From Halobacteriales archaeon QH_10_67_22 (GTDB lineage: Archaea; Halobacteriota; Halobacteria; Halobacteriales; Haloarculaceae): a stretch of 32,849 bases of DNA. Below are positions 9,346-13,643 of the stretch, piece by piece (within the stretch, counting starts at the first letter, position 1; the number at the start of each line of letters is the position of its first letter). A program made the position numbers and the translations under genes. The DNA lies in contig PXQN01000090.1 in assembly GCA_003021305.1 (NCBI GenBank), positions 50,598-83,446 on the forward strand, in the 5' to 3' direction. The notes under the pieces were generated by a model. The model ran no database searches. It had not been told where the DNA came from and saw only the letters and a list, made by a program, of their open reading frames with translations.

Positions 9346-9525
9346 ATGGGGTTCGGGAGCTACGACGAATCAGAACAAGACAACCAGGAGTACGACGCCG
9401 ACCTCGACGATGAAGACGGCCTTTCGACGGCACAAAACACACACGATGGCGACGTCGAATACACGTTCGACGCGTCGAACGACGAACTGCTCGATAGACT
9501 CGAGGAAATAAAAGAGAACACGTGA
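9346..9525 (+). CDS. DUF5786 family small acidic protein (59 aa)
   Basis: Not in ORF track. MGFGSYDESEQDNQEYDADLDDEDGLSTAQNTHDGDVEYTFDASNDELLDRLEEIKENT matches the haloarchaeal MGFGSYDESEQ...GDVE..ASNDELLD.LEEIK family. Confidence 0.88.
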   Translation: MGFGSYDESEQDNQEYDADLDDEDGLSTAQNTHDGDVEYTFDASNDELLDRLEEIKENT

Positions 9526-10088
9526 AAGCCGGGGTTCGGGCCCTCGGCGTGGCCGAGTCGTATCGCGGCGACGAAAGCACCCTCGCGGGCGCGGTCGTCC
9601 GGGCCAGCAGGGTCGTCGACGGTTTCGTTTTCGGGACCTGTACGGTCGGTGGCACCGACGCGACGGAGACAGTCCACTCGCTGGTCGAACGGCTGGACCG
9701 CGCGGACGTCCGGTATCTCCTCTGTGCGGGGGTCGCGCCCGCGTGGTTCAACCTGCTGGACCTCCCCGCAATCTACGAGCGGGTCGACCGCCCGGTGCTG
9801 TCGGTCACGTTCGAGGAGAGTCCCGGCCTGGAATCGGCGCTCCGCGAGGCCTTCGACGGGCCGGCGCTGGACGAGCGACTCGCCACCTACCGGCGCCAGC
9901 CCGACCGCCGCCCGGTGACGGTCAACGGCGAGCGCGTGTTCGTCCGGTCGGTCGGCGTCGAGGACGACGCGGCCGCGGACGTCGTTCGCGGGTTCACCCC
10001 CGAGGGCGGCCGACCGGAACCGCTCCGGGTCGCTCGCCTCGCCGCCCGCGCGGCCGACGAGCGGTTCGTGGGCGACACCGACGCCTGA
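9522..10088 (+). CDS. DUF99 family protein (endonuclease dU-like)
   Basis: GTG start in GTGA overlap with the DUF5786 stop; GVAESYRG...VDGFVFGTCTVGGTDAT...YLLCAGVAPAWFNLLDL. Confidence 0.88.
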   Translation: MKAGVRALGVAESYRGDESTLAGAVVRASRVVDGFVFGTCTVGGTDATETVHSLVERLDRADVRYLLCAGVAPAWFNLLDLPAIYERVDRPVLSVTFEESPGLESALREAFDGPALDERLATYRRQPDRRPVTVNGERVFVRSVGVEDDAAADVVRGFTPEGGRPEPLRVARLAARAADERFVGDTDA

Positions 10089-10195
10089 TACGGTCGTGCG
10101 TACTTCTTTTGATTCCCACGAAACAGAACACTGTCTCCGTGGTCCGAAACGCCGATCCTCACCGACACTGCCGAAATTGGGTACGCACGACCGTA
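10089..10195. mobile_element. MITE-like element, copy A, with ~15-bp terminal inverted repeats
   Basis: TACGGTCGTGCGTAC...GTACGCACGACCGTA; inverted homologue of 13537-13643; TGA flanks both sides. Confidence 0.7.
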
Positions 10196-10383
10196 TGACC
10201 CGGGCGCGCGACGAGTGTGTGCCCCGAAGGCGTGAAGACCGTGCTCCGAACGGAGTGTCGAGTTTCTCCCGTTTCGGTCTCGACTGTGCCCACAGTCGGG
10301 TAGCCAGCGGCTACCGGGTGCCCGACCGGGGAGGTTTTGCCGCCGGGCCACCCACATCCGACCATGACCGAGGAGCGTCGCCC

Positions 10384-10974
10384 GTGACCCCCGAGGTGGA
10401 CGGGCTCGACGTCGTCGCCTGCGAGCACTGCGAGCGGCTGTGTGCTTCCCGGAGTCGCATCGTCAACGGCGTCGGTCCCGCCGACGCGGACCTGCTGTTC
10501 GTCGGGGAGGCACCGGGCGCGAACGAGGACGAGGCGGGCGAACCGTTCGTCGGGCGGTCCGGCGACGTCCTCGACGACGCGTTGCGTGCGGCCGGACTGG
10601 ACCGGGCGGACGTGCGCATCACCAACTGTGTGCGCTGTCGCCCGCCGGACAACCGCGACCCGCGGGCCGACGAACTCGACAACTGCCGGGCGTTCCTCGA
10701 CCACGAGGTCGACAGTGTCGACCCCGAGGTGGTGGTCCCGCTGGGCAAGGTCCCGGCCGAACACCTCCTCGGCCGGGACGTAGCGGTGACGAGCGAGGCC
10801 GGCGACGTCGTCGAGGCCGACATCGGCGAGACGAGACGACGCGTGTTGATCTCGGTCCACCCGGCGGCCACGCTGTACGACCGCTCACAGGCCGACACCT
10901 TCGAGCACACTATCGGGCGGGCCGCCGACTTTACCGACGGCGAGAGCGGCCAGGCCCGCCTGGGCGATTTCTGA
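10384..10974 (+). CDS. udg: Uracil-DNA glycosylase, Fe-S family-4/5-like
   Basis: LFVGEAPGANEDEAGEPFVGRSG; CEHCERLC and NCVRCRPP...DNC cysteines; SVHPAA motif. GTG start chosen; exact start uncertain; track start at 10096 runs through copy A. Confidence 0.9.
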   Translation: MTPEVDGLDVVACEHCERLCASRSRIVNGVGPADADLLFVGEAPGANEDEAGEPFVGRSGDVLDDALRAAGLDRADVRITNCVRCRPPDNRDPRADELDNCRAFLDHEVDSVDPEVVVPLGKVPAEHLLGRDVAVTSEAGDVVEADIGETRRRVLISVHPAATLYDRSQADTFEHTIGRAADFTDGESGQARLGDF

Positions 10975-12720: not shown

Positions 12721-13536
12721 ATGGCACGGGGCAGGACGCGGTCGCTGGCGCTCGTCGCTGTCGCGGCGGCAACGGTCGTCGCGGGGTGTGGCGCGCTCGG
12801 CGGCGGGTCGGTCGAGACGGTGACGCCGGCGCCGGTGCCGACCGACGGGGTGGCCTATCCGCCCGGTGTCGCCGCCGACGGCGTCTCCCCGGCGAGAGTC
12901 GCGAACGCCCACGAACGGACGCTCCTGACGACGAACTACACGGTGAGTAGTCGCCGGGCGGTCGTCGGTCCGAACGGGACCATGCGGACGACCAACCGCA
13001 CCCGGACCGTCGCCGCCGGCGGGGAGACGTACGCCGGGCGGTTCGACCGGACGGTGGGGGATTCGCCGCTGGCGACGCTCCCGCTGACCCTGGAGTACTG
13101 GACGAACGGGAGCGTCTACGCCAGCCGGGAGTTCGTCTCCGGTTCGCCCGAGTACTACGGCTGGTCGCAGGGCGACCGGGCGACCGAGGACGTCGACTAC
13201 TCGACGGTGCTGACCCGGACGTTCGACGCAGTCGACGTGCGAGTCGCCGACCGGTCGGCCGACGGGGTGGTGCTCGTCGGGTCGCGACTCCGGCGTCCCG
13301 ACCGCCTCCCCAACCAGCCCTACCTGACCGACCCGCGCAACGTCTCGCTGACCGCCCGCGTCACCGACGACGGCGTCGTCTCCCGCTGGCGACTCGCCTA
13401 CGACGCGACGGTCGCCGACCGACCGGTCCGCGTCGTCTGGCGGATCACGGTCGCGGATGTCGGGACCACGACGGTCGACCGACCCCCGTGGGTCGATACC
13501 GCAAAAGAGTGGGTCCGGATGCGCCGCGCGGGCTGA
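12721..13536 (+). CDS. Haloarchaeal lipoprotein (DUF7537-like by recollection)
   Basis: Signal and lipobox MARGRTRSLALVAVAAATVVAGCG; secreted Thr/Asn-rich body; stop TGA abuts element copy B. Confidence 0.8.
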   Translation: MARGRTRSLALVAVAAATVVAGCGALGGGSVETVTPAPVPTDGVAYPPGVAADGVSPARVANAHERTLLTTNYTVSSRRAVVGPNGTMRTTNRTRTVAAGGETYAGRFDRTVGDSPLATLPLTLEYWTNGSVYASREFVSGSPEYYGWSQGDRATEDVDYSTVLTRTFDAVDVRVADRSADGVVLVGSRLRRPDRLPNQPYLTDPRNVSLTARVTDDGVVSRWRLAYDATVADRPVRVVWRITVADVGTTTVDRPPWVDTAKEWVRMRRAG

Positions 13537-13643
13537 TACGGTTGTGCGTAACTAATTTCTGCAGTGTCAGTTCGGATCGGCGTTTCGGACCACGGGGACG
13601 GTCGTCTGTTACGTGGGCACAAAAAGAAGTACGCACGACCGTA
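13537..13643. mobile_element. MITE-like element, copy B, inverted relative to copy A
   Basis: TACGGTTGTGCGTAA...GTACGCACGACCGTA; reverse complement aligns gap-free to copy A (about 92/107 by hand count); TGA flanks both sides. Confidence 0.7.

Follow-up and report, generated by a model that had tools for sequence, protein, structure and literature searches.

Why should a short repeat sit exactly on the stop codon of a gene, with the stop triplet repeated on its far side? The question arises twice in the window, a 32,849-nucleotide stretch of contig PXQN01000090.1 from Halobacteriales archaeon QH_10_67_22, where two copies of one repeat family, F1, lie exactly on in-frame TGA stops. Copy A ends the open reading frame 9522-10088, which matches PF01949 at 186 bits (DUF99, renamed Endo_dU in the present Pfam). 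A preliminary description of this DNA had placed an element with TGA on both sides at the DUF99 stop, and the exact arrangement proved to be TGA, 107 bp, TGA. Its terminal inverted repeats (TIRs) of about 15 bp on the 107-bp core were also read correctly, TACGGTCGTGCGTAC being perfect along 15 bp. The features are as follows.

9522..10088, + strand, host gene DUF99/Endo_dU (PF01949), protein intact
10086..10088, + strand, left target-site duplication TGA, the in-frame stop of the DUF99/Endo_dU gene
10089..10195, + strand, MITE family F1, copy A, 107 bp
10089..10103, + strand, left TIR of copy A, TACGGTCGTGCGTAC
10181..10195, - strand, right TIR of copy A, matching the left TIR perfectly
10196..10198, + strand, right target-site duplication TGA
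12721..13536, + strand, gene ending on the duplicated TGA of copy B, DUF7537 (PF24381)
13534..13536, + strand, left TGA duplication of copy B, the stop of gene 12721-13536
13537..13643, - strand, MITE family F1, copy B, inverted relative to copy A, 84% identity
13644..13646, + strand, right TGA duplication of copy B

F1 is a real mobile repeat that is nearly absent outside this assembly. The source assembly comprises 2.52 Mb in 94 contigs and is 77% complete. In these 2.52 Mb, the 15-mer from the F1 end occurs 263 times with up to two mismatches, and its ends are non-random because the reversed control gives a single match. The 263 TIR 15-mers correspond to about 132 F1 places. Around these we fetched about 0.8 Mb, regions thus chosen by the presence of F1, in which 95 copies have both ends, 81 of them at standard length. 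The F1 TIR was found in 7 of 41 genomes searched, its own genome counted, and G013 holds one relative with the same ends and length. No F1 match at E ≤ 1e-6 was obtained in a sample of 300 further genomes of the order, and there was none among plasmids or phages. The preliminary description called the element MITE-like, a label that fits a short, non-coding repeat of 107 bp with TIRs, a target-site duplication and the ends of an autonomous partner.

The TIR of 14-15 bp is conserved across 86 aligned full-length copies, with only 13 of 2436 TIR positions (0.5%) off consensus, against a median pairwise divergence of the copies of 11%. The combination of many sequence variants and near-invariant ends suggests that F1 spread lately in a burst fed by several source copies, in line with recent insertion from several diverged sources. 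At L063:3501 and at L132 near 3515, a single F1 end is fused to another repeat (AAATGACTCGCTTCGCTCGCC...), which is possibly an additional mobile repeat.

Two further mini-element families occur in the fetched regions. F2 (TIR TACTGTCGGACAC, 109 bp) has 33 copies there, of which 7 of the 17 classified are on stops, and F3 (TIR TAGTGATTATTGT, 80 bp) has 51 copies, 24 of the 45 classified being on stops. Both are unrelated to F1, having other TIRs, yet the duplication rule and the enrichment at stops are common to all three. F3 and F1 are stacked head to tail at L072:3824, L080:71, L112:3497 and L134:3497. In such stacks the second element uses the duplicated TGA of the first, and several begin at a stop codon.

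The triplets that flank the 95 F1 copies are TCA/TCA in 42, TGA/TGA in 40, TGA/TCA in 6 and others in 7, so that 82 of 95 copies have an identical TGA or TCA on either side. The duplication is therefore TSA, read as TGA on one strand. That the flanking TGA is a 3-bp target-site duplication, as first described, is borne out by two sites at which a single triplet can be seen. An F1 copy nested in another F1 splits ...GTGGTC-TGA-AACGCC..., a target with one TGA and no TA, and the same internal F1 site has also been struck by an F3 element. At the orthologous empty site in G001, a genome of the same genus, the alignment runs through a single TCA. In the TGA/TCA class the flanks are palindromic, and joining them places several of these copies inside genes; the class likely results from recombination between copies or from misassembly.

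Intergenic insertions show the preference of the enzyme because they are free of coding-sequence bias. Intergenic occupancy is 16/104 for CTGAG, 9/163 for CTGAA and 14/325 for CTGAC, and with A or T before the TGA only 5 of 963 intergenic sites are occupied. The palindromic target consensus is CTSAG. The tips of the element read TA...TA, as in canonical IS630/Tc1 elements, and could suggest an ordinary IS630 duplication of TA, 2 bp long, with the flanking TSA coincidental within a larger target such as TSATATSA. We give this almost no credence. The nested target, which holds a single TGA and no TA, rejects a 2-bp TA duplication for F1, and the G001 empty site is likewise a single TSA without TA. 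Furthermore, 89 copies have TSA at both flanks, and 82 of these carry the same S base left and right, and the haloarchaeal IS630 elements of TA type (L180, L196, L300, L315) do not have matching 3-bp flanks.

What moves F1? Comparison with relatives makes it very probable that F1 is a MITE moved in trans by an IS630-family transposase with a TSA target, and that its excess at stops is a by-product. F1 would be a non-autonomous cut-and-paste transposon, and its mover an IS630-family (Tc1/mariner-related) enzyme reading the TIR of about 14 bp, TACGGTCGTGCGTA. In place of the textbook TA, the target is the 3-bp TSA triplet, which is duplicated, with the palindrome CTSAG favored. The partner is inferred from the identity of TIR and duplication in relatives because no DDE_3/IS630 gene was found in F1's own 77% complete assembly; an autonomous partner may be absent from this incomplete assembly or may have been lost. 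In genome G018, L160 carries a 1039-bp element (1502-2540) whose TIR core is identical to that of F1 and which has TCA on both sides. Its 305-residue transposase matches the IS630 model NF033545 at 163 bits (cut-off 100) and DDE_3 (PF13358) at 106.8 bits. A DDE_Tnp_1 enzyme was rejected as the mover: there are two matches in F1's own genome, and the F1 TIR is in neither locus.

The partner is not alone in its target. Other haloarchaeal IS630 elements are likewise flanked left and right by TSA (L169, L170, L195, L283, L290, L291, and further L293, L296, L302, L303 and L313). In this partner group 12 elements are flanked by a 3-bp TSA in place of the 2-bp TA duplication; the exceptions are L304, flanked by TA, and L282, flanked by TTA, so that the TSA rule does not hold throughout. 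L304 and L290, both from G260, are copies of one IS630 element, at TA in one place and at TGA in another, and the G260 enzyme may occasionally take a TA target. By their sequences, the elements of the TSA group are members of the IS630 family, and by their target a variant of it. The TA group (L180, L196, L300, and L315 from Haloferax volcanii pHV4) is mostly found in a C-TA-G context, and the TSA target may be CTAG with one extra central base, a 3-bp versus a 2-bp stagger. In a transposase tree labelled by duplication type, two TSA elements fall among the TA clade with low support. Haloarchaeal IS630 transposases are often encoded in two overlapping frames, as at L195:175-1193 (172 + 178 aa), L309:530-1587 and L310:530-1599, an arrangement consistent with programmed frameshifting.

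To place copies relative to genes, the flanks of each F1 copy were joined in silico to give the empty site, which was then classified against automatic gene calls from a home-made codon-usage caller trained on the fetched sequences. Among the 92 testable copies, 43 were intergenic, 8 were called within gene bodies and 41 fell exactly on an in-frame stop, a position that accounts for 13% of non-coding TSA triplets. Of the 9809 TSA triplets taken from these regions as controls, 364 are stops. The proposal that the element inserts at TGA stops thus stands for these 41 copies, but the target itself is TSA on either strand. Tabulating the copies, as the preliminary description had suggested, upheld the flanking triplets, with an identical TGA or TCA at both flanks in 82 of 95, and not a general position at gene ends: about half the copies are off stops, mostly intergenic. 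Pooled over the three families, occupancy is 70/546 at TGA stops, 20/497 at TSA 1-50 bp 3′ of genes, 42/2454 at other intergenic TSA and 4/10076 at gene-body TSA. The odds of occupancy at TGA stops are 3.5 times those of TSA 1-50 bp downstream (p = 2.5e-7), and the excess points the same way in all three families.

An insertion of this kind does little to the protein. G001, which is without F1, has 13 orthologues of genes whose stops are occupied here; 10 of the 13 end in TGA and 7 of the 13 have an identical C-terminal length. Insertion at the stop therefore leaves the protein unchanged, in agreement with the original suggestion that the stop is regenerated and the protein kept intact. The G001 orthologue of the DUF99 gene itself ends in TAA and is two residues shorter.

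Does the element seek the stop, or does the stop happen to suit it? A transposase or host factor could guide insertion to translated or transcribed gene ends, TSA being merely a local requirement, and the 3.5-fold odds across three families speak for such guidance. However, a C precedes the TGA in 52% of TGA stops, often supplied by GC-rich last codons. Correcting for the two neighboring bases leaves a 2.2-fold stop excess, and a 12-position context model learned on intergenic sites only lowers the excess over 3′-proximal sites from 3.5- to 1.7-fold. The 1.7- to 2.2-fold remainder can still be counted in favor of guidance, but after the 12-position model the residual (log OR 0.51 ± 0.28) is not significant. 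About half of the copies are away from stops, intergenic CTGAG is occupied at 15%, a range equal to that of stops, and stacked insertions in the duplications of other elements track the triplet and not the gene end. We therefore regard guided insertion into gene ends as unlikely and conclude that the stop pattern is mostly target preference together with the loss of harmful insertions. GC-rich last codons would offer the preferred C ahead of TGA, an insertion at the stop would do no harm, whereas coding sequence would lose most of its insertions, and a tendency to lose insertions 5′ of genes would add to the excess. The stop-codon harbor is real but has probably arisen as a side effect of target preference combined with selection; a small effect of direct attraction to stops is possible. 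We are similarly doubtful of a wider scenario, in which a haloarchaeal IS630 clade moved from CTAG/TA with a 2-bp stagger to CTSAG/TSA with a 3-bp stagger and gained active seeking of TGA stops, alone or via a host factor, so that stops became a genome-wide safe harbor for several unrelated MITE families.

Copies at stops might instead have been retained for what they do there, as transcription terminators or as stabilizers of mRNA 3′ ends, and a structured 3′ end or terminator was part of the preliminary description. The TIRs allow a long hairpin to fold, and at one end of F1 the TIR is bordered on its inner side by the T-rich tract TTCTTTT. However, the tract is present at one end only and F1 copies at stops occur in both orientations without bias (16 versus 23, p = 0.34). 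No terminator-like site was found in F1, F1 had no match in Rfam, and a search for compensatory pair changes in the F1 alignment gave none; for these reasons the terminator role is unsupported. The sole conserved paired region is the TIR, which transposition requires regardless, and the copies are lineage-specific and apparently recent. Domestication as a 3′ element is accordingly an improbable explanation, more so than guided insertion.

Transposition into TSA by an IS630-type enzyme, the reading we prefer, sets F1 apart from the systems it most resembles. ISY100 and IS630 use TA as their target and make a 2-bp duplication (PMC2170065). The elements described here share with this IS630/Tc1-mariner (ITm) group the DDE_3 transposase (NF033545, PF13358), a length of about 1.0-1.15 kb, frequent coding in two frames, short TIRs and TA tips, and differ from ISY100 and IS630 in the 3-bp TSA duplication with its CTSAG preference. 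Within the wider ITm group, the eukaryotic Fot and Fot-like pogo elements have gone from TA to a 3-bp duplication (PMC7386202). They duplicate TAA and not TSA, and no link to stop codons was found in the part of that account covered here. The haloarchaeon Haloquadratum walsbyi has MITEs and short mobile repeats (SMRs) that are likewise short, non-coding and bounded by TIRs; SMR-A measures about 110 bp, reaches up to 54 copies and also inserts into other elements (PMC3119063). Unlike F1, which has a TSA duplication and favors stops and 3′ intergenic DNA, SMR-A makes no target duplication and targets palindromes of IS605-type elements and PATEs; the term IS630 is absent from the text of that paper (PMC3119063). 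REP/BIME and similar intergenic palindromic repeats resemble F1 in being short and extragenic, with palindromic ends and more than 100 copies, but F1 differs in its clear target duplications and in sharing its ends with a DDE transposon of relatives. In the literature covered, which did not extend to ISfinder or most subscription papers, we came across neither an IS630 element that duplicates TSA nor a stop-codon MITE. We take F1 to be a new MITE belonging to an IS630 variant whose target is 3 bp long.

The target rule of a transposon alone can turn a stop codon into a safe landing site, the stop being rebuilt through duplication of the TGA, and this pattern is common to three element families of one genome. 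IS630-family enzymes with a 3-bp TSA target, to which these results point, would be an exception to the TA rule deemed typical of IS630/Tc1-mariner transposons. For annotation, the rule accounts for the many genes of such a genome whose final TGA is followed directly by a repeat.

Finally, copy A lies between two genes on the same strand (window positions 9522-10974). The DUF99/Endo_dU gene, of the deoxyuridine endonuclease family, is followed on its 3′ side by a gene of the uracil-DNA glycosylase superfamily at 10384-10974. The two are possibly a dU-repair pair.
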